DNA from: Owenia fusiformis
Taxonomy: Eukaryota > Annelida > Polychaeta > Sabellida > Oweniidae
Assembly: GCA_903813345.2 (NCBI GenBank)
Contig: CAIIXF020000001.1
Coordinates: 31,722,556 to 31,786,555 of the forward strand
Reading direction: 5' to 3'
Length of the DNA stretch: 64,000 nt
Shown here: positions 1 to 63,634 of the stretch, piece by piece
Numbering within the stretch: the stretch's first letter is position 1
Layout: every line of letters begins with the position of its first letter
Made by a program: the position numbers and the translations under genes
The notes under the pieces: generated by a model
Databases searched by the model: none
Seen by the model: only the letters and a program-made list of their open reading frames with translations
Told to the model about the DNA's origin: nothing

Positions 1-243
1 TTGAGTGTGTTATGTAGTGACTCCCCTAATGCAAGAGAGCTTTAAATGTTAGTTGAAAATCAATGCTGAATGAATGATAGATTTTGCCTTATTCATTTAT
101 GAAATATGATTCATTCAACATTGGTTTTTATTAGCGATTTCCAGCAATAAGACCATCCAGCTATAACACCACAAGAGCATCTTCTTAACAAAGGACTTTT
201 CAATTTGCTGGAAATTCCCAGTATGTGTACTACTACCCCCTAC
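1..243 (-). other. Sema5: Start of the intron after Sema5 exon 18
   Basis: Non-coding in all frames on the minus strand beyond short runs. It is the 5' part of the intron leading to the transmembrane exons. Confidence 0.8.
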
Positions 244-396
244 CTATGACATTATATTCACACGGCCTGATCTCCTCATCTTCTCCCTTGCACTGTGTAC
301 GAGTGGGGAATGGTGGAAGACACTTCCTAACTCGCTTTTGTAGGTTCTTAGGTGAGCAGACAGACCAAAGGGTCCATTTACCCCAACCATCATTCA
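244..396 (-). CDS. Sema5: Sema5 exon 18: TSR 7, last exon inside the window
   Basis: 153 bases, phase 1 at both ends, acceptor TTGACAG, donor GTAGGG. Encodes NDGWGKWTLWSVCSPKNLQ, KRVRKCLPPFPTRTQCKGE and DEEIRPCEYNVI. It matches the last SEMA5A TSR (WSEWSDWSECEAS, CILLFPMGSQCSG, SRPCVF). The following exons, for the membrane span and tail, lie to the left of position 1. Confidence 0.95.
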
Positions 397-3300
397 CTGT
401 CAAGTTTAAAATAATATTAGATTTAGACATTTGAAGAAAGCAAGCATGTAAGAAAAGGATAAAGATATCATTGATGATGCATATATCAATTTACATTATG
501 TTCGTTACTAAAGTGTATTCATGTCATATACCTCAAATGTATATTTTATAAATTGAAGATTTTAATTGACATTAAGTAGATGTTATTAAAATCCACATGG
601 TGAAATGGGAAAATTATTAACAATGTCCTCAATGCATAGACAATATTAAACACATACCCCCACCCTGATTATGCACAACCCTACATACCCCCCCCCACCC
701 TTCCCATTCTGATGATGCACAACCCTACTTACACCCCACCCTTCCCATTATGATGATGCACAACCCTACTTACACCCCACTCTTCCCATTCTGATGATGC
801 ACAACCCTACTTACCATCACATGCTGCCATTTCACACTCAAGTTCCTGCTCAGAATCACCATCACATCCCCTAGTGTACACTCTGCCATCTTTTATCTTG
901 TCACAGACACGTGTACGTTTCTTGGTGCCTATGCCACAACTGACAGAGCATGCACTGTAGTCAGACCAGCAGGACCATTCAGCTGCACATGAAAGCAAGC
1001 ATGCAGTTATTAATAGACTGATCACCTATTATTCCATAAGGTGAATGGTGGCTAAGAATTTGTTTATTTAGTACTACAATATAAAGTTTGTCTTATCTTG
1101 TTATCAAGTCATGTTTTTCAAGATGCAGCTTGCATACAAACTAATGAAAACTAATGTAGAACATCTGAAATATAGAAACTTATCTCGATAGATCTTATGC
1201 ATTTGTTCTAATAAGAAATAAAGAAAAGAAATTTCATGTACTGGTCATGAACTTCAACAATTCCCCAAGATGCTACTGTATTGCTCCTCTACTCATTGGA
1301 ACACATATATTTCAAAAATGCAAAGCTGAGCTGATGGCCAACTACTTACCATTACAGCTATGTGTGTTACATTCACGTTTCTCCATGCTGTGTCCATCAC
1401 AATCCTTGCCACTACCACTGGGCTCTGGGTCTGTACACTCCCTGCTGCGCCACTGGACTCCTCCATTACATGGTGCAGAGCATTGGTTCCATGACGTCCA
1501 CTTGGTCCAGCCACCATCAGTATCCAGTCTGCTAGCACCTGCAGGAGGAATTATATTTACATTAACTCAATTTCGAATTTTAACTGGATTTGCATAGCAT
1601 AAGCAACTGTGTATTTCTCAAATGTGAATATCTCCACAGTTTTATCAAATCTACGTGTTTTATTGCATCCAAGAGTTTGAATCTGTAATCATATTGCACT
1701 TTTTGACTTCATGCATTGAAAATCTTGTTATTAAAAACCAATGGGTTGCATCAGGCAAGATGGCCATTAGGTTCATATCTTAGTTGTAACAAATACTGCA
1801 TATGCATATAACATTCAGATAACAAGTATAGTACACAATTGTTGTCAAGATCATTGATGTGGAAATAAACAAAACAAATACAGAAACTTTTTTCCAATAT
1901 ACTGTTCAAAGTTCAAAACATGAAGTTAATTTTGACTCCCAACATGGAAATATAATTCTTGTTATATTAAATTATCTCTGCAGTATTCTTATGTTTAACC
2001 ATGCCACACATTTTGCAAACAACAAGCAAACAAATCAAAAAACATCTGAAACTAAAATCTGTGATGCAAGATGCAAAAACACCAGGTGGATTTGGGAGGT
2101 AGAAGGGTAAACTATTCAGAGCAAACCAAAAAATTTAAATCAACAGCTCATTGGATCATCATAATGAAAATAAGTACATGTTAGGAAAATAGAGTCTATT
2201 GTGTATGTAGAGGGGTGTAAGTTAGTATATAGGTAGGGAGGGGGTTAATATGAACACCATGCTTAGTGTAACACCACTGCTTACCTTATAGAAGAAGGGA
2301 GAAAAACAGATTTTCAGCCATTACCAGAAGGAGGTGTAACTCACGGGGACACATTATCCCCGGGACACATTATCCTGGGAACACACGACACATGGTGCAT
2401 GGGATACCTAGTTAAGAGGCTTAACTAGGAAATGTTTAGAAATGAATTGATTAATTAAATAAGAGTCTCAGTTAATATTTTTCAAATGAGGTAATTTGAA
2501 TTTTTTTCTTTTGGAAGTTGACTTAGGACAAGCATAGTGATAGCTATGAATAAAAGAAGCTGTTAGAAGCTACAATTCTCTAGAGATTCATAAATATTGT
2601 TCAAAATCAAAGGAGCAATATCATTAGAATTTGGGATTCTCATAATTTTATTATCTGTACAAAAGAGTACATAGAATAATAGTGTTAAAATGTAATTTCA
2701 TAAAAATGGGACATACACATATAAATAATTTACATGACGCTACAAGTATGACCCCTTGAAAAAATAAACTCTTCCATGTTCAATCAACCATTATATACTT
2801 CATTGGAATAGTTTATGTTTACAAGGGGTGCCTAATGTCTGTTAGTCTACAGGCTTGCACAGCAGTGGGCACACACAGGGACCAGCTACTAATAAAAGTT
2901 AGTAAAAGCAAGGATGTTGAATACAACATTGAACACCATTGATTTGACATATACAAGTGGACATGAATATGATAAAAGACTGCTATGCAAAATCTGTAAA
3001 ATAGCAGCCATTTACAAAAATTCTCTAAATTACTAAAACATATCACGATATATAAATTGAGATCACAATATTCAAAAACCAGTCATTGCATCGTAATACT
3101 GCTTGATAATGCTGAACCTGCTACGTACAGTAAGGCATATAACTCCAAACTCAAGGGCAGGCTATCCAGGGACTTGGTATAATATCAGGATTGCACAACA
3201 CCTAATGAATGCCCCCTTAACACTCAAAATGTCCACTCAATGTTTTCAGAGTCACCAAACATGCCACAGTAGCAGTGCCAACAACATTTATAGCTAGCAG

Positions 3301-6300
3301 TGCACCAGCCTCAAATAAATAAATAAATAGTCCTCTAAGCTATATACAGTACAATCAAGAGTATACTGGGGCTGAATAAATACTACACTGCAAATGTCAT
3401 AATTGTCATCCTCGAGTCCTATGATGACGTCGACGCCTCAACCGAGCCTCTTTGGCTGGGTCACATCGCTGACACGTTCTAAAGAATCCTAGATCTTTAC
3501 AGGAGCAGTACCCATAGAAGGGATGAAACTGTTGCAGATGCCACTTTCTACAGTGTTCCTGGAAGAGGGGATCACTGGACTCAAACAGATCAATAGAGTT
3601 ATCAAGCTCACCTTTATTGTCACAATCAACTCCTTTAGGATCACAAAAACGGATCTCTGTTTTAGGATTGCTTGCTCTGAGGTCACTTGGGTCTGAGACT
3701 CTGGCCCGACAAATGTAGCGATGGCGTTGTTCAAAGTAGCCATCGTTGGTGATGTTGGATCGTAACCATGGAGTCCATTGTGTTGGTTTTCTTACTTCTG
3801 CAACATAAATATAAAAAGCAAATTATGATTTGGAAATAATAATCATATAATCATAATTCATAAATATCAATAATGTCATATCTTACAAAAATTTGTAATT
3901 GTATAACATTGCAATTAAAATGATTCCTCATCCTAACTTACCATTACACTCATGTTGATTGCACATCTGCCAGTCATCAAGATTTCCAGCGCACGGTTTG
4001 CCATCATTCTGTGGCCGAGGACTGTTGCACTCTCTATTGCGTGTTCTTATGCCCCCACCACACTTGGCAGAGCAGCGGCCCCAGTCACTCCAGTCTGACC
4101 AGCCTCCATCTATTGGTGGAGGGGTAGGTGCTGAAATTAATTGAGGCTTTGAATTATATAGCAGTAATTTAAGAAATCCTAGAAACAGTACACATACATT
4201 TTCTTATTCTAAAGGTGACACATGTTTTCTGAGCTTATTGGAGAACCACACCTGAGGTTGTTTTCAAGGTTTTTATTTGCAAATGCAGAAGCATTGTTAG
4301 AACAGATATTCCCATATTTCCTGATATTGATAGAATTAATTTACTTCATATTTTGTCATAAAAAGCAGCCTTACGTGGACACGCTGCTTTCCTACAGTCC
4401 TGTACATCCAGATCTGACCCCACACATAATCTGCCACCATATTTGGGCTTAGGATTCCCACACTCCCTTCGTCTGGTCCTCTCGGAGCTTCCACAAGTAG
4501 AACTACAGCTGGACCAATCAGACCACTTCGTCCAGGCTCCATGGACTGAAGAAATAACATGTTTTGATTGGTTAACCAAGCTGCTATTTGGAAACTCAAA
4601 CTGTTAATCCTAGATTATGTACTAGTAACTGTCGAATATATTATAAAGTTCTGATCATGAGGTTTGAAAATAGCAAATCTTTTTGAAAGTTCAAATTTCT
4701 TTACACTGAGTTATTTTCACTCTTAATCAAAACAAAATTCCATCTTCATATTTTTGTCCACTCATGATCAGCCAGTCTAAAAGTGTGAATAGTCAGAATG
4801 TTCTATGTAACAACTCAGATCAAGGTGAATGATATGTACAATGTGCAGCAGCGGCATTTGTCCTACAATATGTACATCTATGTACAGTTTCTAATGCATG
4901 CAACTAATAGAAGACTAAACGTACTATTTGCACTACATACAAAGCAGATGTACAAGGAATGATGAGCAATGAAAGCAATGTACAACAGCATGCTCTTTTA
5001 ATTCAACAGCTTCAGATTTATTCATATTTCTATCAATCAAATCTCAAGAAAATTAATCTTTTCCACAAAATAAATATACACACAATAATACACACAATAA
5101 AGTGTATGTACTTGATACTTCATGCACAATGAACATTTCTTGAGAAATCATGGTGATGGTGGATACAAAGGAATCTATTGAAGGGAAGAATGAATGCTAC
5201 AATTCAATGGTCTAACAAAATGAAATGCTAGCAATTAAACTGAACAGATAACAACATGTAAATGCTAACAATGCAAAAAGCAAACACAATGGCAAACAAT
5301 GAGGCAAAGTAAAACAACATTATGACAATGAGACCTGCAAACTTACAATGTAGCACTTTAGTTTTGTATCTAGTGTGCTTTATCATTCCTTTGAGAGTGC
5401 ATTAAAAACAAACAGGAAATACAAGATGTTTCTTGCTCTTAATCAAATATATGGATTGTCAAATAGGATGTTAAACTTGTAGTCTTTATCAATGTATCAG
5501 TCATTTTCCATGTTTTTGTTTAATAAATGGACAATTCAGGTAAAACATCTGCACATTTGTAAAATCAAAACATGCTTAAGTTGATATTACTTTTCTCTTT
5601 TAACATGCATGCACTGTGTATCAACTATCAAGGTGGATCAACAAACGAGTTCCATTTAACAAAACTGAATCCCTAATTTCTCAGACATTATCAGTAGGTT
5701 TGAGCTCTGTATTAAGAGCTTGGGCCATCCCCTGCATATATGCTATTTCCATATAATGCCATGTTTTTCACCTACTGTATTTCCTGTTCTACTCACCAGT
5801 ACAGTTAGTGACTTCCACAATGGAACCAGAACAGGGTCTGCCACCATTGAAGGGACCCTCACATGCTCTGTAGCGACAACGACACATGTCTGGGCTGTTA
5901 GGATCACTGATATGGCTACATCTTGTCCAATTGGACCACATCTCCCATTTACCATCAACTGAAATGGTAGATTATTCAAGCTTACATTAAAGACATGGAG
6001 ATAAAATAATATTATTGCGTGGAAATATATTCTGTACATTGATTCCACCTTTTCACTTCTTCCACTTACAATTCTTTTACATTTCTTTACATGAAAGGAA
6101 TTCAGTTGCTTGGACAATTTCATACTGTAGTTGTATTAACATAATACCAGATTTAATACTGTATCACCCTGTGTCTTTCCTACCTGGAGCATCCATGATG
6201 GGGCAACTCTTGACATCCTGATGCCAGTTGTGAGTATGTATATTCCCTCTTGGAGGAGTAGTACAGCGCCCAGCAGGATCATGCCAGCCACAGTATGGAT

Positions 6301-9300
6301 CTTGAGCATTCATACATTCACTGAAAAAATTAAAAATATGAGGATTGTTTATCTGTTGATGTCATTTATTTTAAATAAGTGATAATGCAAAATTCTATGA
6401 TTTGGTCTTTGTATAGGTGAAGCAAACACTAACTTTCCTATTGAAAAGTAAACTTCAAAAGTTTTTCCTGATATTTCAACAATTATTTCCAAATCATGAT
6501 ACAATTTCTCCATTTACTGTAAAGAACATAGCAAAAAGGAAGTCAACTAGAAGTTTAAGAGCTTACGTTTTAGTGAGGAACCTGCCACATCTTTGAGTAG
6601 GAATTTTCAGCAGTTTAGAGTCAGTTGCTATGATGATATGCGATTCATGACCAGCTTTGTGCAAATGCATAGATTTGATTGGCTGGGTCTTATCCTTGGA
6701 CATAATTGTGATCTCCTCAACTAAACATGAGGTTTTGCTGTCCTTAAGATGAACTATTTTCTTCATTTGGCCCTTTTGGTCAACCAGAAACATGACAGTA
6801 AATGAACGATGATGCTTTGCTGGAACAGTGTCGACTGCAATGTGGCTCCACCTGAAATCATTCATTTTTGAGATCTTTAGTGAAATTCAGATGTTTGACT
6901 TTATTCTAATTATAATTTTGCAGACACTTTAAAACTTAAACGCTGGCATTAAGTTGCTTAATTATATAGCTTACCTTTCATGTTCAGAGCTGTACATAGG
7001 CATGATACTGGTTGGCTGTACAGCTTTGTCCATCATCAGATACTTCTGGGAGTTGATCATTCTAGGTGCCTGCTGCCTCATGGCTCTGCCTGCTGATAGT
7101 ACGGAGGGGGAGCCAGCACACTACAGAACAGAAAATGTATTACAAAAGTGCACATCTTATTTTTGCTATTTTTAAATAGGTTTAATACATATTTTACTAT
7201 TATAAATTATAATGTATGGGAGAAAATGCATCCACACATTTCGATTTAAACTTCTCCTGAAAACTGATTGCAGTAAAATATCCTTTCTTACATTATATGA
7301 AACTGACATATTGGTAATATGGGGAACATACCTGATACATTGGTGATGGGTTTGAAAATTTCTGCCAGGCTGCTTGAGAATGTTCCTGGTGCTTAAAGTC
7401 TGAGCTAAATGCATTATTGAGTGACGTCATGTTGTAAACACAGACAGCAGAGCCAGCAATGCTGTTCCTGTAGGAAGAATAGATATGAATGAATCCTTGA
7501 ATAAGATTTGTATTATCTATGAATTGGTTAACCAAAATCTATATTAAAAAAAACAAAGAACCTTAAATAAATGAATAATCACAATCCTGATTTACACCTG
7601 ATTTACTATCAATAATTAATTATATTCCAAAAACACTGGGGAAAATGGAAAGTGATTAACTTACGTGGATGTAGAGAATGTAGCATAGATAAGACCCTCA
7701 CTCTCATTGTAATATGTATGCTGTAGCTCATTGTAGTAAAATGGATATTCGCCTGGTAAACTACAGTTTAATCGGGCCTTTGTAAATGATGTCCACCTAT
7801 CTTTCATTAAGAATTGACCACCAGGGTCGTTCTTGCACATTCTAGCCACTCTTGAATAAACATTCTGAAATAAGAAAAGTTATTATCAGCAATCATTCAT
7901 GTAAGTCTAGTGCAATGCTCAAAAATACAAATATGAAATTAGAGCACAATAACCTTAATGTGAGGTAATTATTGAACTGTACATTGGACTGTTATTTGAA
8001 GTGTATACGGATTTGTGTTTTCTCTGAAGGATATTGCAATTTTAGACTTCATTGATTTTTAGATTAGATTATAACTAAAGGAAATTAAATCAGTTGTAAT
8101 TTGTCAGTTGTGCAATATAGCATAACGATGGCAAAGATTTTATTAATAGCATCAGTGATAATGTTAAGTGTTTACGTTACAACTTGGTCTCTCAGAAAAA
8201 TTGGAATTCAATTGGTAACTCAGAACATGTCTTTCCACAACTGTAAATTCTTGTGTCAGAATAGCTTACTATTTCAATGAATACTTACCTTTCCACAATT
8301 AATATATTCCACTGCAGTTTCTCGGAAAAAGAAATAAACAAAGTCTCCAATCTCGTATGAGGACACAAAGTTGGCCCCTAAAAATATAATGAATATATTT
8401 TCATTAGAGAATGATATAATATTTCAAAGTGAGCAGCAATCATGTTACAATGCATTTAAGATTATACACTTGCAATATCTGATACTGATATCACTGAAAA
8501 AACATTAGCTAGGCAAGAAATACTCTTAAGATTATAGTGCAAAGATAACATTCTGGGTCACATTGACTCCACTTTATGGTACAATGCCCATTAAACATGG
8601 CCCCATCTCAATCAAGCTGTGATAACGTCATCTTCCATGGGTTTAAGTTAACCCATCATCTCCTTGGTTTAGGTTAACCTTAACCAATATGCAAAAATCT
8701 GATAACCATCTGCTAGTATATACATTTTTATCACTTCTCATAAATTTGAACTCTGTAGCCCTGACAACTCGACAAACTAACAGTTTTAACAAAAAGATAG
8801 ACAAATGTAACAGATGGAAGTTTTTGTGCCTTGAATGTAATTTAGAAATAAATATCCCCGGACTTGATCTTGAATTCCAGTCATGTTCACAGCAGACAAG
8901 TGGAAATCTACATAATTTTAAATCCTGAATTAGGAGCTTCTTTAAGAATAGGAATTCAGAATGAAAGTCAAAACAATTAATGAAACAACTGATTATTTTT
9001 CAACTCTTGTTTATTATGACTGGCCGGGTGAAAGATCCAATGAAACTGTACTCTTATAAACTATTATAAACATTAAAGTTTACCATACAGTGCAGAAACA
9101 TAATATATTTCCTCAGCTTATTTACTTTAGAATATTCAGTAAAATATGTTAAATTAACACATGTAACTTTCCTATCAATAAATTTTACATTTTCAGCCAA
9201 ACATCTGGCAAAAGATATTGTTGTTTAAAGCAAGGGTCATCAAATATTATGTAAAACAGTTGACAGTTGGCTCTAATAAGCATTCTTGTAATGTGTTTGT

Positions 9301-12300
9301 TATGATGGATTACTATTACAAACAAATACAGTATGCCAATGAATAATGTGAATGAACTAGTGAAAAGGAGTAGGATGTTCTGAATCTGAAGCCAATTCAA
9401 GTTGTTTTTGTCTGTTTTTTCTGATCAATTTAACATTGGAATGTTTATCTTATGAAAGCTAACAGGTTTTAATATCTGAATTTACAAAGGAAAATGAAAA
9501 TATATGGATCGTGGTGTCTTCTGTGGTCCTTTTTAAAAATTCTGGAATCACATCACTATTTTAGTCCTTACCGTTGAGCCACTTCGAATCCCTCTCAGTG
9601 CGAAGTGTTCCAAGACTGGATATACCCGCACTCTCACTGAGACCAGGGGGAGGGGATGGCCAGATTCTATGGATGAGAGAATTCCCCCCAGCAGAGTCAA
9701 TCACAGTCCCACTGAACAGGTTCCCATCCTGGCTGATAAAGGCAGTACTGTTTTGTTGGAGGCTGAATGGACATTTTCCAAGCCCTTTCACCCATCCTCT
9801 TACAGTCCCTAGGTTTGTTGCCTGAAATATTAGAAATGTAGATTCATTCTATCTGTAGGAAAAATTATTCACTCATTATTGGTTTAGCCAAGACAACAGA
9901 GCTAATATTTGTAAAGAAGAACAAAAATGAGTATAGTCAGAGAGGAGTTACCACAGTAGCTACTGATTACATTATAGTAAAAGTAACTGACATCCCCCTC
10001 CCCCTCATATTCATAAATATACATTCTTAACGCTGCTATATGCTAGCGGATCTCTTTAGCAACAATTGTGTAATGTAATAATTGTGGTTTATGTTTGTTA
10101 TTCTAACAGGAAGTTAAAGTTAGAATGTAGAGTGAAACCAAGTGCAGATCCTGCTATATATTATCAGCATCCTAAAGTTGGACCTTTCATAAAACATCCA
10201 TGCACCATACATTATCATGTTATATACAAGTCAAGTAGAGGATAGATAATGTAATTGCTTACTTAAATAGTGATTTTTTTACAAAAGTACACGGATATGG
10301 ATCCTTGTTTTACTCAATTTGATCTTTATTCATTGAAAAATCTGATAATGAATATTACATTAAAAAAATAAAATGTGCACATCTTTGAATATACTACTAA
10401 TTTGTATTCATGTAACTAGAAAGACTAGAAGAGAGAATAAAAAGTTGAAATAAAACAGACATTGGACAGATGTATGTTAAGTCACTTGAGAGCTCAGTTT
10501 ATATTGAAGGTGATATAACAACAAGACAAAACCACAATTATCTCAAACATTCTCTACAAGTTCCACACATTCATCAAGCTTTGAAAACAGGTTGTAATAT
10601 GCAAAAAGTAGATTTAAGATAATACTTGAGTAAGTAGGAAAAAACAAATAGGATCTCCTCTTTACTTCAGAGTCTGGCATTTCAATGACGTCTATATCTC
10701 TTAGAGATAGAATCTTACATACGCAAATGATTTAGTGGATTACCAGGATTTACCTTAGTGAAAATACAAAGCTTAAGCTGATTGTACGGGCAACACTTCT
10801 TTAGTTTCAAGTCTGTTTTTTGTTTGTTGTTTTTCAAGGGCACTTGGATGTTTTGCCATGAGGGACTTGTTATACTGCATTTTGCATTTTCAATTTAAGC
10901 TCTGATAGAAATGGTATGGACTTTGCCATGCAAAATACAAATCACAATGTTCTTTACATGCTGATCTTGCTTGCAATAGAAATAATGTTCAATGCTGACA
11001 TCATGGGAAAACTTCAAGTTCAATGCTGACATCATGGGAAAGCTTCCCTTTTCTCATCACTGTTGTCTTAAACATTATGCAGTAATAGCTTATTGGCAAT
11101 AAAACCAAAAACTAAACATTGCAGACATGAAAACATTGCCAATAACATGTGACAAAACTCACGCTTATCCTAGAATGTCATTGTAAAATTCACACACTGT
11201 TTGCATAATTCAGGTTAAAAGTACAAGTGACTGTTATAATCTGTATAGATATCATGTCGTATCTCATGGCCGTGTTATTTCAGTAATATTAGCATTACCT
11301 TTTAAGATATCCCTTACTTGACTTTCACAACATATGAACTTCAAGTTCAACCCGCATACATGTGTTTTTAGTAAAATAAAACTACTTCCTCATAATTGAG
11401 AAATCTGAGCTCACATGCAACAAATAATATGATAAGAAGTTGAGATAAAAACTGTGATATTATGTTTTTGTAAGTTAAAGAGCTATCAACTCAGTGTGAG
11501 GGTGTTTAAACTCAAGTTTCTTGTGTAGATCTCATGTAGCGCCTTGACTGATGTTCAATTTTACTGTTAGAACTTTGAGAAATGTCCTTTTTACGACATC
11601 TGATTTCAGCTATTTCAGTGTAAAGTAGAAAAGTCTTGAAATGTGCTTGAAATAAGCTTTAGTTAATTCGTATTTTAAGGCTGTCTCAGTTTCATAATAC
11701 AATGAAATGAGAAAAATTCATCTCACGTTGTTGCTACAGTATTATCATCCATCATCATTATTAAGTCTAGGGAGGAGCTGGGAATGACAAAAAGATAGAA
11801 CAATGTTTAAAATGATGACCACAGACCTGAGGTAATATGTGGCAACTTGTCAGGTCATACACCATCTGTTCAACACACCTGGATGCTTTTATAGCAACTG
11901 GGGACACTTCATGGAGATTTCAAACAGTTTTATCTATAGAACTTTATACATGGAATTATATAAAGATAAATAAAAGTTCAGATATGTGGAAGAGTATTAT
12001 ATAGCACTATCATTCATTAAATTTATTCATCAATATCGCATTCATATGAAGTACATTCATATAATGTAACATATGGATATTCGAGACCAGAATAACACCA
12101 TCTTTCCATTCAAAGCACTCCTGTTCAATTTTATAAACAGTTTATTAGAAGTGAAAAGGACCCCTAATTACATCATTAAATTAACAACTGGTTATGACAT
12201 ATTACATCAAAGTAGTAATTAGTGCACCTGTTAATCAAAACACATGCTGTACTCCTACTTTTAGAAGTTATAAAAACTTCAAAGTGTTTTATATTATTTA

Positions 12301-15300
12301 AAAAGCTATAATTTTATATGCCAAAAATATAGGGGTAACTGTCCTTGGAAGATATAGTAGCAAAATAAACCGAAAATGATTCATAATTATAAGCATATAA
12401 ATGATTTTGTTTGTTTACCCAAGAAGTTAAAATAAGTTTTATAATCTTGAGTTGATTTACAAAAGACATGTTTATGATATAAAACTACTTGAGTTTATGC
12501 AAAATGCAACACTTCTGATAAATGATGCAAAGTGCCTACTGTTGTCACATCTGACCTGGTGCCTTGATTCCAAACAAAGCAAAGGGCAATATATAATTCA
12601 GCTGAAGTTTGAGTTGTAAAATAATAAAATTGCTTGACAGTGACGTAGGTGGTTTTGTAACAAATCAATACACATGCATTGCCTAATTTTGAATGATGAT
12701 GTATCGCCACTTGTATTGTTTTTGATGAGATCCAGGTGTTAGTTATGATTTGACCTATTTAGTAATGTGCATGTGCCTGGACTAAGATAACAATATTGCA
12801 GCAACCCATAGGCAAGAACAATAATCTAATCTTATGTGTTATTCCACATTAGCCCATCAACAGTTTAGCATTCCCTTTCCTTAAGCCATATGTGATAACT
12901 TGCAATTGAGTTATGTCAGTATGTACTACACAAACCCTCCCCCCCCCCCCGCCAAACCATTGCATCAAGTCAGCTCCCATTTAATCCCTGATGCGTGATT
13001 ATTCTTACTCCTCCCTTTCAATATTCTAATTTTCAGACAGTGTAGTCTATGGGCTAATAATAGATTAGCGTTTTTATTAGATGGCTTCAAACATAAACAT
13101 CTTTCAGTATACAGGCTTTATTTATGTTCTCTAAGACAAGCATGTGAAAGATATCAGGGAAACATGAAAGGCCTTACACCTGTAATTAGCATGGCACATA
13201 TCCAGGTTGTGCAAATTACAACCAGTCTCTGAGCTATATCTGCTGTTTTTACAAATGAATATCAAAACTGGACTGATAATTAGGATAAGAGGAAAGAAGT
13301 AACCTATACAGGTTGGACCAGCCATTATATGTCCATTGAGCATTCACACATTTCCATTCAACCATTCACAAGATGTACCTACATTCACATATGGCTCCCA
13401 TACCTCTAGAGCAATTTCAACATCAGTTATGCATTGTGAACTACATTTGGACATTGCGTTTTAAGCAGACACTTCCAATATACTGACCTCCCTCCATGAG
13501 CACTTAGGTTCAAATGCATTGGTCCCACAGGCAAACACTCCTCCTTCATTGTTGGTCAGTAGAACTTTAACAAAGTTTTCACAGCCAGTCTAAAATGACA
13601 TAAAAATTGGTCCATTTTCACAGGTCTGAGTATGATTTTTACAAATCTCATCTTATTCATTTATTTGAAATTAAGAAATCGTATCACTTTTTCACCTTGT
13701 AACACGCTATATTATATTTCTTGATGAGGTTAATTTTCTAATATTTATCAACTTACAGATCCTGGTCTTTTCTTGAGGCACATCTCCCTTTCAGTGTCAC
13801 TAATGGGCCATTCTACCTTCTCCAGTTGACTCAGGTCATCTATCGCTAATCTTAATAAATAATTTCTGAAAGCAAACATTTAAGATACATAGGATTGTTT
13901 TTAAAGATTTGTATATAGCTTCGTGTGCATTGCTTTCATTTTTTCATCAGCTTTTTTAAAACTGAAATTTTTACATAATAATTAGAAAACTCTACAATTT
14001 GACATTGTTTCTTTTTTAAAACTCACCTAGCACCAACTAAAAGTTGGTTATTTGGAATGTCGAGGGTTAATTGTGCAATGTCTGTGACATCTCTGCTATG
14101 GTAAGTCTGCACGGATCCTTCTTTCAGAGATTTTCTGAAGTCTGTAAGTACACAAAACAACAATCAAGATTAATCTCAAATGAATAGATGGTTGATATAA
14201 TGTAATTTCAAGATCAAAAAGAAACTTTATTAAAACTATTTCTACTGGAAAAACATTCTTAGGGGTTCCATTATAGTGTAACTAGTAATTACTGCCAACT
14301 TTCTAGACACTTTAATTAAATTTTTATTTTGCAATAAATTCTGATATTCGTGGTACTTCTTTATAAATGTATATAGCATGAATCAAGTTCATGTAATTAT
14401 AGATCTCGGTGTCCCCGTATGTTGTAATTATAAACTTCAAATGTGATTCAAGCCAGTTACCCTCAAACAACATCTCACTTAGTGTGATTAAACATGAACT
14501 GGGGAATGGTTCATAAGGGAGATGAAAGAATGTAGTATGTGATATTGTAAAGTGATCACCTGTATTATCTACAATAAGCCATCTTCAAAGACAATGTATA
14601 TTCATAAATCTCATAATCCTAGATAATCTCAAGGATTTTTTCAAGTGTCATTGATACATATTCAAGGGCTATACTATACATGTACAACAGTGTTTAGAAA
14701 TATCAAAAGCAACCTTATAGTAATAGTATATGACATATTTTGATGAATCAAGCAAAAAAGAACTTCAATTCATTTCTGGCCAGGGCCCAGTATGAAATAT
14801 GAAAACCAATGATAACTTTACTTACTTAATTACAAAGAGATGTTATTGCCTACTAAGATAATCAAGGGGTATTGAAGGAATCCACATGTTGAAGGTTTTT
14901 AAAGGGTTATTAATACTTATCCACCTATGTTAAGACAAATTACTCATCAGCAAAAAAACATCTGAAATACTCAAATGATGAAACATACTCCAAAGCATAT
15001 TGTAAATTATTCATCTGATCTGGCTCATCTGGCAACTTAGAGAATTTGTTTGACTGTATCATAATTGTATCGATTTAATCTGACTTTTGACGCAAGTGGA
15101 ATCAATGTCCCTCATAATTTTTGTCCTAAATTGGATGTACTTCAATCAGCTAATAGAAAGGTGCCTTCAGAACTACTCATGATAAGCACCTTTCATACTA
15201 ACTTACTAACTTAACTATAAATGAATTAAATAGAAAACCAAGTTAGGGAAGATCTGGAACAATTTTGCCTTATACTGGTTTGGCTAGACATTATATTCAT

Positions 15301-51300: not shown

Positions 51301-51982
51301 CCATGAACAGTTAGGGTTAGAGCCATTCAGAAATAATATTCATTTCATAAATGGACATTGGGTTACAACTGTGGTGAACATGCTGAATCGCTGATGCTCT
51401 ACCTTGCCCATGTATTGAAAACTTAAACCATATTGAAAAGGACTCAAAAGCATCATGTTTGCAAATGATTATTGAAACATTCATTGAGGTAAAGATGTTA
51501 TCTACTGTCCTAGTTCCAACAAAAACCATGTTTCACTTGAATTAAGACATATACAATTAGAATTTGTTAGATTATGATTTACAAAGCCTTGTGACTGAGA
51601 TACATGATAACTGTAGTTGCTTGGGGTCCAGGGACATTCAGTGCAAACAAACCACTTTTCACTATCTTTGCTATACATAGTATAATGTGAATATATATCC
51701 ACAGCTGGCTTAGCCTTGACGTATTGAGTAAAACTGTACTCTGTCTTAATAAATGAGCTAATAAGATCTGAAGGTTTGTTAGAAATAAAAAGATAAATAG
51801 ATAAGCAGAAATGGTGATGCATGATTTTGCATTTAGAAAACATACTCACCATCGAAAGTAACTATCCTAAAATCTTTAGGTCCATTTACGCTGGAATGAG
51901 TATCATCTTTTGATCCATGGAGAAATCCCAAAAGACACGATAATCCATGTAAAACAAACAGTGCTGCTCCGTTTTTGTACAT
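244..51982 (-). CDS. Sema5: Semaphorin class 5 (Sema5), 18 exons, 3' end off the window
   Basis: Class-5 semaphorins are axon-guidance ligands/receptors, normally single-pass membrane proteins that act through plexins and bind glycosaminoglycans through their TSRs. Read on the minus strand, 18 exons give 2920 coding bases with compatible phases at every join: signal peptide (residues 1-24), Sema domain (about 40-515), PSI (about 515-560) and seven TSRs (568-973). Recognisable blocks shared with SEMA5A include LLVGARNYLLRL, CGTNAFEP, SKWLNG, FVSSYEIGDF, CKNDPGGQF, KARLNCSLPGE, PFYYNELQ, NAQDPYCGW and WSCWSDYSAC. SEMA5A has about 1074 residues, so roughly 100 (juxtamembrane, membrane span, cytoplasmic tail) are missing to the left. 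Whether it is closer to 5A or 5B cannot be said; invertebrates usually carry a single Sema5. A shorter form ending in exon 15 is listed separately. The 5' end is set by the ATG at 51982, which begins a good signal peptide. Confidence 0.96.
397..814 (-). other. Sema5: Sema5 intron 17
   Basis: 418 bases, AT-rich except for the tandem repeat next to the donor of exon 17. Nothing else seen. Confidence 0.9.
661..814 (-). repeat. 40-44 bp minisatellite that duplicates a 5' splice site
   Basis: Four copies of a unit containing GCACAACCCTAC on the plus strand start at 673, 717, 759 and 799 (spacings 44, 42 and 40). The copy nearest the exon includes the true donor of exon 17. Two further copies carry a perfect GTAAGT on the minus strand (732-727 and 773-768) and the outermost has GTATGT. 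The array therefore lines up three decoy donors behind the real one. Confidence 0.9.
815..982 (-). CDS. Sema5: Sema5 exon 17: TSR 6
   Basis: 168 bases, phase 1 at both ends. Encodes AEWSCWSDYSACSVSCGIG, TKKRTRVCDKIKDGR and SEQELECEMAACD. It matches VWSCWSPWTKCSATCGGG of SEMA5A. This is the only TSR here with an intact CxxSCxxG O-fucosylation motif. The donor (GTAAGT at 814) is the first of a repeated series; see the minisatellite. Confidence 0.97.
983..1349 (-). other. Sema5: Sema5 intron 16
   Basis: 367 bases of AT-rich sequence between exons 17 and 16; nothing recognisable. Confidence 0.85.
1350..1538 (-). CDS. Sema5: Sema5 exon 16: TSR 5
   Basis: 189 bases, phase 1 at both ends, acceptor CTGCAG, donor GTAAGT. 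Encodes ASRLDTDGGWTKWTSWNQC, SAPCNGGVQWRSRECTDP and KDCDGHSMEKRECNTHSCN. The frame was fixed by the Cys/Trp pattern; another frame is also open here but meaningless. Confidence 0.96.
2647..2652 (-). terminator. Candidate poly(A) signal for the short Sema5 form
   Basis: Nearest AATAAA on the minus strand after the alternative stop, about 755 bases downstream. One hexamer in AT-rich DNA is weak evidence. Confidence 0.25.
3312..3330 (-). promoter_or_regulatory. AU-rich element in putative short-isoform 3' UTR
   Basis: On the minus strand the sequence reads TATTTATTTATTTATTTG, overlapping AUUUA pentamers. It lies 76-94 bases after the TGA of the extended exon 15. Such elements destabilise mRNAs when in a 3' UTR; in an intron it would mean nothing. 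Confidence 0.4.
3406..3797 (-). CDS. Sema5: Sema5 exon 15 (extended form): alternative 3'-terminal exon
   Basis: The frame of exon 15 stays open through its own donor for 68 more codons and ends in TGA at 3408-3406. The tail begins GELDNSIDLFESSDPLF, has five Cys (C21, GYCSC, then CQRC) and closes with a basic run, RLRRRRHHRTRG. The local base composition is exon-like (clearly richer in G+C than the flanking intron), and so long an open stretch is unlikely by chance in such AT-rich DNA. If polyadenylated here, the product is about 871 residues: signal peptide, Sema, PSI and TSRs 1-4, with no membrane span. It would therefore be secreted. I recognise no family for the tail. It could also be an unspliced relic with no product, or a clade-specific exon end with a minor donor. 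Confidence 0.5.
3612..3797 (-). CDS. Sema5: Sema5 exon 15 (spliced form): divergent TSR 4
   Basis: 186 bases, phase 1 at both ends, donor GTGAGC. Encodes VRKPTQWTPWLRSNITNDG, YFEQRHRYICRARVSDP and TEIRFCDPKGVDCDNK. It aligns with the atypical SEMA5A repeat TTPWTPWTPVNISDNGG / YEQRFRYTCKARLADP / IEMRYC, which lacks the usual CxxC. It joins exon 16 as DNK-G-ASRLDTDGGW. Confidence 0.95.
3942..4130 (-). CDS. Sema5: Sema5 exon 14: TSR 3
   Basis: 189 bases, phase 1 at both ends. A Pro-rich linker (PTPPPIDGG) leads into WSDWSDWGRCSAKCGGG, IRTRNRECNSPRP and KPCAGNLDDWQMCNQHECN. Lys stands at the O-fucose position, as Gln does in SEMA5A TSR 3. Confidence 0.97.
4375..4545 (-). CDS. Sema5: Sema5 exon 13: TSR 2
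   Basis: 171 bases, phase 1 at both ends. Encodes HGAWTKWSDWSSCSSTCG, SSERTRRRECGNPKPKYGG and RLCVGSDLDVQDCRKAACP, a canonical TSR with six Cys. The O-fucose motif is broken: CSSTCGSS has Ser where Gly is expected. Confidence 0.97.
4546..5796 (-). other. Sema5: Sema5 intron 12
   Basis: 1251 bases of AT-rich intron. No open frame or repeat of note. Confidence 0.85.
5797..5958 (-). CDS. Sema5: Sema5 exon 12: TSR 1
   Basis: 162 bases, phase 1 at both ends. Encodes DGKWEMWSNWTRCSHISD then PNSPDMCRCRYRACEG and RPCSGSIVEVTNCT. Like the first SEMA5A TSR (FGVWSPWTPCTHTDG, SCLCRTRSC), it has the divergent CxCR centre and an insert after the first Cys. WxxW C-mannosylation motifs are present. Confidence 0.95.
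6184..6320 (-). CDS. Sema5: Sema5 exon 11: PSI domain
   Basis: 137 bases. Encodes ECMNAQDPYCGWHDPAGRC then TTPPRGNIHTHNWHQDVK and SCPIMDAP. C..A.DPYCGW is the PSI signature and the Cys spacing fits the plexin-semaphorin-integrin cystine knot. Leaves in phase 1, which starts the phase-1 series of the TSR exons. Confidence 0.97.
6567..6851 (-). CDS. Sema5: Sema5 exon 10: last propeller blades and start of PSI
   Basis: 285 bases, the longest exon seen. Begins WSHIAVDTVPAKHHRSFTVM, then LVDQKGQMKKIVHL, SCLVEEITIM and KIPTQRCGRFLTK-T. SEMA5A has FSHVAVDVVQG, GTIKKVRVPL, SCLLEEIELF and KIPLKRCQFYRTRSTC. The Cys of QRC opens the PSI domain. Confidence 0.97.
6975..7120 (-). CDS. Sema5: Sema5 exon 9: Sema domain
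   Basis: 146 bases. Encodes CAGSPSVLSAGRAMRQQAPR then MINSQKYLMMDKAVQPTSIM and PMYSSEHE-R, corresponding to the SEMA5A section DAQKFILMHEVVQPVTTVPSF. Acceptor CTGTAG, donor GTAAGC. Confidence 0.93.
7332..7467 (-). CDS. Sema5: Sema5 exon 8: Sema domain
   Basis: 136 bases. Encodes NSIAGSAVCVYNMTSLNNAF then SSDFKHQEHSQAAWQKF and SNPSPMYQ, aligning with NSIAASAVCVFNLSAISQAFSGPFKYQ of SEMA5A. Leaves in phase 0 just before the next Cys. Confidence 0.96.
7665..7864 (-). CDS. Sema5: Sema5 exon 7: Sema domain
   Basis: 200 bases. Encodes NVYSRVARMCKNDPGGQF, WTSFTKARLNCSLPGE, PFYYNELQHTYYNESEG and IYATFSTS-T. This is the most conserved semaphorin block (R.CKND.GG and the KARLNC loop). Potential N-glycosylation at NCS and NES. 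Confidence 0.97.
7865..8288 (-). other. Sema5: Sema5 intron 6
   Basis: 424 bases, AT-rich, nothing recognisable. Confidence 0.85.
8289..8377 (-). CDS. Sema5: Sema5 exon 6: Sema domain
   Basis: 89 bases. Encodes ANFVSSYEIGDFVYFFFRE then TAVEYINCGK, equal to NFVSSYDIGNFTYFFFRENAVEHDCGK of SEMA5A. Acceptor TTTTAG, donor GTAAGT. Leaves in phase 0. Confidence 0.96.
8378..9571 (-). other. Sema5: Sema5 intron 5
   Basis: 1194 bases, AT-rich. Short open frames lack coding character. Confidence 0.85.
9572..9821 (-). CDS. Sema5: Sema5 exon 5: Sema domain
   Basis: 250 bases. Begins ATNLGTVRGWVKGLGKCPFS, then QQNSTAFISQDGNLFSGTVID, and ends RTERDSKWLN with a split Gly codon. SEMA5A has GMARCPYSPQHNSTALL and AQYNSKWLNEPNF at the same places. 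It carries a potential N-glycosylation site (NST). The Pro-rich loop WPSPPPGLSESAG is longer than in SEMA5A. Confidence 0.95.
10987..11047. repeat. 31-bp tandem duplication
   Basis: Two nearly identical copies of a unit starting GTTCAATGCTGACATCATGG begin at 10987 and 11018. They differ near the end (AAACTT versus AAGCTT). Confidence 0.9.
12939..12950. repeat. Poly(C) tract
   Basis: Twelve consecutive C residues in AT-rich intron. Similar tracts occur at 22641-22652 and 25525-25537. Confidence 0.95.
13488..13589 (-). CDS. Sema5: Sema5 exon 4: Sema domain
   Basis: 102 bases, 34 codons, both ends phase 0. Encodes TGCENFVKVLLTNNEGGVF then ACGTNAFEPKCSWRE. The motif CGTNAF is diagnostic of semaphorins. 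The donor is GTCAGT, weaker than the others in the gene. Confidence 0.94.
13757..13865 (-). CDS. Sema5: Sema5 exon 3: Sema domain
   Basis: 109 bases, acceptor TTTCAG, donor GTAAGT. Encodes NYLLRLAIDDLSQLEKVEW then PISDTEREMCLKKRPGS, aligning with NYLFRLQLEDLSLIQAVEWE of SEMA5A. Leaves in phase 0. Confidence 0.95.
14027..14141 (-). CDS. Sema5: Sema5 exon 2: Sema domain N-terminus
   Basis: Acceptor TTACAG, donor GTGAGT, 115 bases, entering after one base of a codon and leaving after two. It encodes FRKSLKEGSVQTYHSRDVTDIAQLTLD and IPNNQLLVGA-R, matching the SEMA5A stretch ending ELVVGARNYLFRL. This is the first blade of the beta-propeller. Confidence 0.95.
14142..19350 (-). other. Sema5: Sema5 intron 1, 3' third
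   Basis: 5.2 kb of AT-rich intron between the exon 2 acceptor and the foldback element. Short open frames have no coding character. One RFX X-box-like word (GGTAACCATGGCTAC, 18680-18694) is present. Confidence 0.8.
19554..20690 (+). repeat. Left-arm array of ~346 bp units
   Basis: The marker ACTTTAATTCATAA, or close variants, recurs at 19554, 19903, 20251 and 20572 (spacings 349, 348, 321). Each unit has a G-rich tract before the marker, TTTTTTCACCAAA, TAATTTGCATAATTTAACCC and CCTAAAAATGCATCTATA. The last copy is partial and is cut off by the LINE end at about 20690. Confidence 0.9.
20690..21070 (-). mobile_element. LINE 3' end A (non-LTR retrotransposon, truncated)
   Basis: The minus strand encodes SCPCGQSMETETHFKVECHM and then FENERLSLFA followed by a stop. 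This is the Cys/His C-terminal motif (CxCG...ETe.HF...C) of Jockey/CR1-like LINE ORF2 proteins. About 250 bases of 3' UTR follow, ending AATAAATTTACTACTACTAC, a short TAC-repeat tail. Everything upstream in the element is missing (5' truncation). It lies inside the foldback element. Confidence 0.75.
21197..21455 (+). pseudogene. Broken Cys-rich (CXC-like) protein fragment
   Basis: From an ATG at 21197 the plus strand reads MNAEKPLFEIPEPGNGFGCQ, VVHITLETIKMTKKPKLDI and TKIPKSFCTCKQYKDKAIC. After one interruption comes TTCSCATAGTECFAACSCGS then KESECGRE. The CxC...C...CxC...C...CxC spacing recalls tesmin/MSL2-type CXC zinc modules, which also occur near the C-termini of mobile-element proteins. 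It sits between the two LINE ends inside the foldback element, so it may be the relic of an element protein or a captured host exon. I cannot assign it. Confidence 0.5.
21613..22492 (-). mobile_element. LINE 3' end B (non-LTR retrotransposon, truncated)
   Basis: The minus strand reads RIIIRQSGSILKLTSHEVRT, then HRYNTRGKSNFTLPKAKLKI and, after a frameshift near 22240, RTIAFSGYSIWNNLPEEIKK, SNSTSFLKSKLKKHILLAY and a stop near 22115. The YNTR...LP...FSG..IWN.LP..IK...SF...K pattern is the classic C-terminus of CR1/L2-like reverse transcriptases. A 3' UTR of about 500 bases follows. It ends in AATAAATTGAGTTGAATTGA, an AATTG-type tail like that of the fragment at 54.04 kb. It is 5'-truncated and inside the foldback element. 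Confidence 0.8.
22495..24060 (-). repeat. Right-arm array of ~346 bp units
   Basis: The inverted marker TTATGAATTAAAGT (with variants) recurs at 22611, 22956, 23302, 23648 and 23997 (spacings 345, 346, 346, 349). It is the reverse complement of the left array and one unit longer. The first two full copies have paired octamers, ATGCAAAT then ATTTGCAT, six bases apart. A 12-C tract sits at 22641-22652. Confidence 0.9.
24205..33234 (-). other. Sema5: Sema5 intron 1, middle part
   Basis: 9 kb of AT-rich intron. It contains a 13-C tract (25525-25537). There are RFX X-box-like words at 27903-27916 (GTTGCTATAGAAAC), 28489-28504 (GGTTACTATGGTAACC) and 30208-30221 (GGCAACCATGGCAA). An open, exon-like minus-strand frame at about 29352-29611 is described in the findings. 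No gene can be supported. Confidence 0.75.
33235..33545. promoter_or_regulatory. CpG-rich promoter-like island inside Sema5 intron 1
   Basis: About 300 bases rich in CpG within AT-rich intron. Visible sites are CCAAT boxes at 33253-33257 and 33336-33340, an inverted one (ATTGG) at 33396-33400, a full CRE (TGACGTCA, 33309-33316), an E2F-type TTTGGCGC (33368-33375) and a GC box (GGGGGCGGGGC, 33460-33470). On the minus strand TATAAAG (33295-33289) is followed by a GTGAGT donor at 33248, which could end a very short first exon. On the plus strand TATATAT lies near 33537. NF-Y, CREB, E2F and Sp1 sites together are typical of a bidirectional housekeeping promoter. The transcript is unknown; no ATG before the donor gives an open frame into exon 2. 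Confidence 0.55.
33499..33525. other. Hairpin next to the CpG island
   Basis: GCAGAGT and GACTCTGC form inverted arms around a 12-base loop at the edge of the island. Confidence 0.5.
33546..51849 (-). other. Sema5: Sema5 intron 1, 5' half
   Basis: 18.3 kb of AT-rich intron. Two short exon-like frames (about 35108-35266 plus strand, 44410-44560 plus strand) and a GC-richer stretch at 48.9-49.05 kb stand out, but none matches a family I know. No transposon ends were recognised. Confidence 0.7.
51850..51982 (-). CDS. Sema5: Sema5 exon 1: start codon and signal peptide
   Basis: The ATG at 51982 opens MYKNGAALFVLHGLSCLLGF, a short basic n-region followed by a hydrophobic core, then FLHGSKDDTHSSVNG and KDFRIVTFD, the start of the Sema domain. 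The exon ends at a GTGAGT donor with one base of a split codon, which exon 2 completes as Asp (VTFD-D-FRKS). This fits 'FRIVTFDDFRKSL', the expected lead-in to strand one of the propeller. No other ATG in frame lies upstream before a stop. Confidence 0.88.
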
Positions 51983-62854: not shown

Positions 62855-62965
62855 CTATGACCAAATCCTCACTGTACAGTCACTACCCCCAGATACAAGG
62901 AATTCTCCATTTCTGTCAAATATTGTGGATTGTGCTGCATCTTCGTGTCCTACCAGAGATGTCAC
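62855..62965 (-). CDS. Last coding exon of a WD40-repeat gene
   Basis: After an acceptor (CATATTTTCAG) the minus strand reads VTSLVGHEDAAQSTIFDRNG then EFLVSGGSDCTVRIWS and stops with TAG. This is one complete WD40 blade: the GH dipeptide, the strand b/c pattern and the structural Asp in SGGSDCTVRIW. It ends at the protein's C-terminus. The exon is 111 bases and enters in phase 0. Its upstream exons must lie to the right of 62965, probably beyond the window, because nothing between 63.0 and 64.0 kb reads as WD40. WD40 proteins are beta-propeller scaffolds with many roles; one blade is not enough to name the family. The gene is transcribed in the same direction as Sema5 and its 3' end lies about 10 kb upstream of the Sema5 start. 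Confidence 0.75.
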   Translation of the reverse strand: MTSLVGHEDAAQSTIFDRNGEFLVSGGSDCTVRIWS

Positions 62966-63634
62966 CTGAAAATATGCAAATATTACATTACAGCAAAGCT
63001 TCCCAGAGATTTTGAAAACAAAGTCGTTGGCTTCTCATTTCTCAAATATTCAAATTTCCCACCATTTTTCAATTTTTTAATCATCAAATATTCCACTCTA
63101 TACAGTGCAAAAAAACTTTTTTTAAATCCAATGCAAAGATTGAACAAAGGACACACTCTTACAATAACAAACAAGGTATTAACATGACAAAATGTAACCA
63201 CCTAGTTGCTCACATTATTAATAGTTCAATCTTAAGTCAGTTTTGAATTTCTGAGAACTTGTTGATGATTTAAGGAATAAATAATGATAGGCCATTCAAT
63301 ATGGTGAAATTCAGCACGAGTTGGACAGAATGTTGTACAAAGCACGAACCGAAGATTCAAACATAAAAATAAAAGCCGTGTCTGTGGAACGGGCATGAAG
63401 GAAGAATACGCATGCTGTCAAGATTCTGAAGTCGTTCAGTATTTATCTGTCCCCGGACAGAGCCCCAGATGTGCAGCTGAGATGTGACGTCACTCAAAAC
63501 AATGCAAATTGCAGATTGAATAGAGCATGGTCGTGCATCTATGGAGAATTAGAGAACGTTCTATATTGGCTATGCTGCATTCTGATTGGTTGAGAAATTC
63601 GAATAGAGCACGGTCATGTTTGAATTTGAAATAA
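62966..63634 (-). other. Intron (probable) of the WD40 gene
   Basis: It contains two copies of a GAATAGAGCAYGGTCRTG word (about 63519 and 63601) and a GC-richer block at 63375-63500 with TGACGTCA. It also has an early, diverged copy of the satellite unit at about 63250. No further exon was recognised. Confidence 0.5.

Follow-up and report, generated by a model that had tools for sequence, protein, structure and literature searches.

The literature describes class-5 semaphorins as TSR-bearing transmembrane proteins (PMC10978931, PMC6374515), and they are treated as membrane cues whose diffusible forms are known from proteolysis; soluble Sema5B fragments arise in this way and are reported to be bioactive (PMC2696441). 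The TSR4 of mammalian Sema5A builds a domain-swapped dimer that is disulfide-linked via C733, and it is reported to be the only effective glycosaminoglycan site, heparin binding being abolished by R747E/R749E (PMC10978931). Loss of a membrane segment through intronic polyadenylation can mimic shedding, and the composite terminal exon, in which a donor goes unrecognised and the transcript ends within the intron, is a standard class of such events, accounting for 1648 of the 2675 classified human intronic-polyadenylation isoforms in the data set of PMC5928244.

Here we describe a gene of the annelid Owenia fusiformis, found on the minus strand of a window of 64,000 nucleotides (the whole stretch of DNA analysed), in which the reading frame of one exon continues far past its donor. 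A sequence-only reading of this DNA had proposed that read-through of exon 15 of a Sema5 gene yields a secreted semaphorin with a novel Cys- and Arg-rich tail. On balance we lean towards this proposal, in which the extension would be a composite alternative 3'-terminal exon used through intronic polyadenylation, with a secreted form of Sema5 as its product. Open frames, splice sites and domain searches were combined into a 19-exon class-5 semaphorin model with a proposed start at 51982 and a stop near -651, in an adjoining locus (L008) beyond the window. The membrane form comprises 1111 residues by this splice model of ours and the read-through form 871, the latter being the same number that the sequence-only reading had predicted. 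The features of the gene, in the order of transcription, are the following.

51850 to 51982, minus strand: proposed exon 1, which would supply the start codon and a hydrophobic N-terminus; no exon of the model is less certain
3942 to 14141, minus strand: exons 2-14 and their introns, encoding the Sema domain, PSI-like region and TSR1-3 (splice model, Pfam, PDB)
3612 to 3797, minus strand: exon 15, encoding TSR4 and preceded by TTGCAG (PF23260, 8ckg match, splice model)
3606 to 3611, minus strand: donor GTGAGC (AAAG/GTGAGC, 3612/3611), left unused in read-through; 10.43 bits leave-one-out
3409 to 3612, minus strand: 68-codon open extension of exon 15 (sequence, splice model, codon statistics)
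3406 to 3408, minus strand: TGA stop of the read-through frame (sequence)
1539 to 3611, minus strand: intron 15 of 2073 bp, containing the extension and a putative 3' UTR (splice model)
3313 to 3329, minus strand: AU-rich element with overlapping ATTTA units (sequence, motif count in introns)
2647 to 2652, minus strand: AATAAA with two TGTA in the 60 nt upstream, a candidate poly(A) signal within the intron, for which cleavage would be expected at about 2630-2640
1350 to 1538, minus strand: exon 16, encoding TSR5, with a phase-1 junction to exon 15 in the membrane form (splice model)
815 to 982, minus strand: exon 17, encoding TSR6 (splice model)
244 to 396, minus strand: exon 18, encoding TSR7 (splice model)
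-235 to the stop at about -651, minus strand: exon 19, transmembrane and cytoplasmic, outside the window in L008 (splice model)

Judged from its predicted domains, the gene is a class-5 semaphorin, combining a Sema domain, a TSR4 match, seven TSR-like exons and a membrane exon. The Sema domain matched Pfam Sema with an E of 1.1e-31 and, when compared with solved semaphorins, found its best PDB match in Semaphorin-1A (E 7.7e-87, residues 74-544). A Pfam search at E <= 0.001 gave no PSI family after the Sema domain; after that domain lies a Cys-containing segment, ECMNAQDPYCGWHDPAGRC, that we read by eye as a PSI-like region. The TSR array that follows occupies exons 12-18, seven TSR-like exons as against seven TSRs in Sema5A, with Pfam backing from four TSP_1 stretches and one TSP1_2, the other two TSRs being read by eye. 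The transmembrane anchor of the full form (1111 residues in the model) is marked at residue 996 by a KD19 of 3.11. The open frame of exon 15 matched PF23260 (TSP1_2, 'SEMA5B-like') at E 2.3e-21, as the sole match to this family genome-wide at E <= 0.001, and aligned with the Semaphorin-5A structure 8ckg in PDB (E 4.7e-14). The rebuilt model and the domain matches thus agreed with the sequence-only reading both on the identity of the gene and on the number of the exon.

Matches to the Sema domain were located at four places in the assembly, two on C10, one on C5 and the Sema5 gene on C1, a set in which semaphorins and plexins count alike because the search cannot tell them apart. Three semaphorins each have been reported for an annelid and a mollusc (PMC6374515). 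A genome search for thrombospondin type-1 repeats gave at least 150 matches, with 150 of 1006 candidates scored, and included long clusters at C1:22.895-22.911 Mb, C1:24.229-24.268 Mb and C7:30.98-31.07 Mb. Within the gene model, exon 1 was picked by eye for continuing the Sema5 N-terminus, from a screen that gave three rows at two places, and the proposed intron 1 (14142-51849, minus strand) spans 37.7 kb, the remaining 17 introns measuring 0.12-3.7 kb. The exon 17 donor stands at the beginning of a 41-bp tandem repeat (665-814; 3.6 copies, 91% matches), in which a GTAAGTAGGG-like donor sequence is repeated down the intron and could provide duplicate splice sites. At 62858-63034 on the minus strand, an open frame resembling WD40 repeats by eye (GGSDCTVRIWS) perhaps belongs to a neighbouring gene. 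Intron 15 is the third longest of the model's 18 introns and is long for the 3' part of the gene, where, from exon 11 to exon 19, the remaining introns measure 144-1251 bp.

Our independent gene model recovered exon 15 and its donor GTGAGC (3611-3606, minus strand) base for base as they had been described, and the claimed run of 68 open codons beyond this donor was found in full, from the split codon GGT (3612-3610) to GGA, followed by TGA at 3408-3406. The five Cys and basic end attributed to the tail were likewise present in the translated extension, which holds 5 Cys, 13 Lys+Arg and 5 His, contains RLRRRR and RRRRHH, and has a pI of 9.0, or 12.0 for the last 20 residues. The 871-residue form has no predicted transmembrane segment, there being no strongly hydrophobic stretch past residue 40; the KD19 maximum of the read-through product beyond that point is 0.93, against 3.11 at the membrane segment of the full form.

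The principal alternative is that intron 15 opens by accident with a GC-richer stretch that lacks stops in the frame of the exon and is always spliced out, so that the isoform does not exist, a reading that we consider possible but rather doubtful. Open runs of the kind do occur by chance. A survey of 49.5 kb of mostly noncoding sequence, covering both strands and all phases, gave 5226 combinations of donor-like GT site and phase, of which 39 stayed open for at least 67 codons; by this measure about 0.13 such runs would be expected among 18 donors. Dinucleotide shuffles of the extension itself stayed open in 376 and 424 of 20000 cases in two runs, or about 2%. At the gene's other 17 donors the frame remains open for 1-12 codons. 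Shuffles that were both open and equally frame-biased numbered 4 and 9 of 20000 in the two runs; as this joint measure was also 0/1000 for five of the 44 intronic frames, which had been chosen because they were open, the figure alone does not separate coding from noncoding. The donor of exon 15 also speaks for routine splicing, since its 10.43 bits lie somewhat above the average of all 18 donors in the gene (about 9.2), on a matrix made from those 18 donors only (their own scores being 3.6-12.6). With so strong a donor, read-through would need to be a regulated or minor choice.

Codon use stands against the chance reading. A codon model trained on 53 unique loci (60 domain-encoding loci minus five with stops, the window's own L057 and one duplicate) scored the extension at 0.281 bits per codon, above all 92 of the mostly noncoding open frames of at least 60 codons used as a null (mean -0.168, maximum 0.166). 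When training was restricted to kinase exons, the in-frame score again exceeded all 92 null frames, also on synonymous codon choice alone. The extension's own frame was the best of its six, and in windows of 90 nt the in-frame score was positive along the extension and dropped at the stop codon, being mostly negative beyond it; after the stop, two windows were positive, one at 3317 (0.10) and one at 1577 (0.04) that extends into exon 16. Part of the codon score is base composition, as the GC-richness of the extension (0.49, against a null-frame mean of 0.34) lifts all of its frames. The signal is also unevenly spread, with 0.101 bits per codon in the first half, where the own frame is not the best one, and 0.461 in the second, which carries most of it. 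The 90-nt window from 3557 has an in-frame score of only 0.03, and the first half of the extension, not clearly coding, is what the chance reading would lead one to expect.

The frame-specific advantage of the extension, based on the 53-locus training, exceeded that of 91 of the 92 null frames. At 0.110 it also lay above all 44 sense-strand intronic frames (maximum 0.077) and within the range of the gene's real TSR exons (0.046-0.308), in a test whose power is limited, given that four real exons (1, 8, 9 and 19) have a negative advantage. Under kinase-exon-only training it exceeded only 84 of the 92 null frames, the remaining eight equalling it in line with the chance reading, and when split it showed a synonymous part matched by 19 of 92 null frames and an amino-acid part matched by 24 of 92. 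The frame-specific evidence for coding is therefore moderate, and weaker with the second training set. We concluded that the extension is probably coding sequence and that the open frame is not well explained by chance.

The AU-rich element and the more distant AATAAA that had been noted downstream of the stop were both found, at 3329-3313 and 2652-2647, and their presence there is a further point against chance. The motif ATTTATTTATTTA, 78 nt past the stop, does not occur in the 43.8 kb of sense introns 1, 4, 5 and 12, and the shorter TATTTATTTAT occurs there once. The setting of the AATAAA, with its two upstream TGTA, is shared by seven of the 53 AATAAA in the same four introns. Introns 1, 4 and 5 contain 1.2 AATAAA per kb, and the hexamer alone is weak evidence and uninformative. 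That AATAAA is so frequent in the gene's introns would suit a second alternative, in which occasional intron retention or cryptic polyadenylation generates a rare, functionless transcript that is open by accident, and intronic polyadenylation is indeed widespread in human cells, with 4927 events reported in one atlas (PMC5928244). Such noise would, however, leave the coding-like codon use across the extension unexplained, and we regard it as improbable.

Within the extension, no GT scored at least 3 bits as a donor on the 18-donor matrix, so that the likely options are to splice at 3612 or to run on, and a longer internal exon is unlikely. A different product, whether with a TSR4-TSR5 linker extended by an alternative 5' splice site or from a skipped terminal exon beginning at an acceptor-like CCCCTCTTCCAG/G before 3558 (3558-3570, minus strand; 5.47 bits, the gene's own acceptors scoring 5.6-14.0), would fit the concentration of coding signal in the second half but is highly improbable, in that the extension lacks such a donor, joining phase-1 exon 15 to 3558 brings a TAG after three codons (by eye), and the frame would be kept only with a phase-0 donor whereas each of exons 11-18 ends in phase 1. 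Taken together, the coding statistics and the absence of any good donor inside the extension favour a composite terminal exon over both a chance open intron and an alternative 5' splice site. The proposed read-through isoform has the gene, the frame, these statistics and the missing internal donor on its side, with the strong exon-15 donor counting against it; the secreted-isoform interpretation is plausible and somewhat strengthened, although unproven.

With a composite terminal exon of this kind, the exon-15 donor would be left unspliced, the transcript would be cleaved at the intronic poly(A) site near 2640, and translation would run 68 codons past the donor before reaching TGA. Counting the signal peptide, the predicted product has 871 residues; it would be a secreted Sema5 made instead of the 1111-residue membrane form. 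It would retain the Sema domain, the PSI-like region and TSR1-4, followed by the Cys- and Arg-rich tail, and would drop TSR5-7, the membrane anchor and the cytoplasmic tail, keeping the module that in mammals dimerises Sema5A covalently and binds glycosaminoglycans.

To compare this module with its mammalian counterpart, we used Sema5A numbering anchored on C733. TSR4 of the annelid gene keeps the dimer cysteine C733 as well as C755, R728, R730 and R753, and its third Cys falls one residue short of the position of C763, giving Cys spacings of 22 and 7 against 22 and 8 in 8ckg. The substitutions relative to Sema5A are K734 to Arg, R749 to Lys, R747 to Asn and T732 to Ile, of which the last two count against the proposal, R747 being one of the two residues reversed in charge in the Sema5A mutant that lost heparin binding. 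By its PF23260 match and its three Cys, the repeat is of the atypical class-5 type and may dimerise. Given the residues that are kept, the read-through form would break off directly behind the dimer unit and a sugar site that is conserved in part. The earlier suggestion that the basic tail might hold the ligand on matrix sugars is better founded on TSR4, the only effective glycosaminoglycan site in mammals (PMC10978931), than on the tail itself, and the isoform, if made, would be secreted, dimeric and held on matrix sugars. The R-X-R/K-R motifs of the tail are possible convertase sites at which the basic end might be removed, and with an odd number of Cys the tail could form one more bond between molecules.

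Searches of Pfam, PDB and the assembly gave neither a recognisable relative of the tail nor a known domain in it. The assembly search returned its own locus only, with no paralogue or other copy (next match E 1.85), and none of 17 pattern matches in prokaryote contigs and neither of two in viral contigs were confirmed as relatives. An origin from a transposon or repeat was rejected, the 1052-bp stretch at 2560-3611 having matched only itself in the 498-Mb assembly. Resemblances below threshold to EGF_laminin (E 0.13), the Ada N-domain (E 0.35-0.68) and G-alpha chimeras (E 0.78 and 1) were taken as chance. The Cys spacing of the tail, C-x-C-x8-C-x2-C, resembles half of a laminin EGF repeat, at the same non-significant Pfam E of 0.13. 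Alignment-free structure prediction of TSR4 plus tail was uninformative, with a mean pLDDT of 35 that was low even over the known TSR4 fold.

More tentatively, and with rather less conviction than we attach to the composite terminal exon itself, the locus may encode a switch in intron 15 between splicing and polyadenylation, setting membrane Sema5 against a diffusible, covalently dimeric, matrix-binding Sema5 that ends after TSR4 and carries a dedicated Cys/Arg tail selected in the lineage. If true, a dedicated mRNA would exist for a secreted form ending at the dimer and sugar-binding unit, one gene would supply both contact and diffusible guidance cues, and a directly testable case would be available outside vertebrates. 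The open-access literature, judged mostly from titles and the starts of abstracts, yielded no Sema5 isoform of this kind that we recognised; the 'secreted isoform' in PMC10568673 belongs to FLT4, and what PMC2696441 calls an 'isoform' is the chick version of Sema5B. The mechanism appears to be of a known kind and, as a Sema5 isoform, undescribed within that literature.

The gene shares with other class-5 semaphorins, vertebrate Sema5A and Sema5B and invertebrate Sema5C, the Sema domain, a TSR array with an unusual TSR4 and, in the full form, a single membrane segment; what would set it apart is a read-through 3' end giving a secreted, Cys/Arg-tailed form. Class-3 semaphorins are secreted proteins with an Ig domain, basic C-terminal tails and convertase-type R-X-R/K-R sites. 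The form predicted here would share with them secretion, a basic tail and sites of that type (RLRRRR and RRRRHH), a likeness of the tails that is compositional only, and it differs in having TSRs and no Ig domain. Another parallel for a composite terminal exon is reportedly sFlt-1, a soluble receptor made by intronic polyadenylation. With IgM and the soluble growth-factor receptors, the proposed isoform would have in common that an intronic poly(A) site is used, that the membrane segment is lost and that the product is soluble (PMC5928244), whereas the candidate product in the annelid would be neither a receptor nor an antibody but a guidance ligand. The proteolytic fragments of Sema5B are likewise diffusible, Sema-containing Sema5 products, but those are cut from the full-length protein, while for the form described here we propose a separate mRNA.
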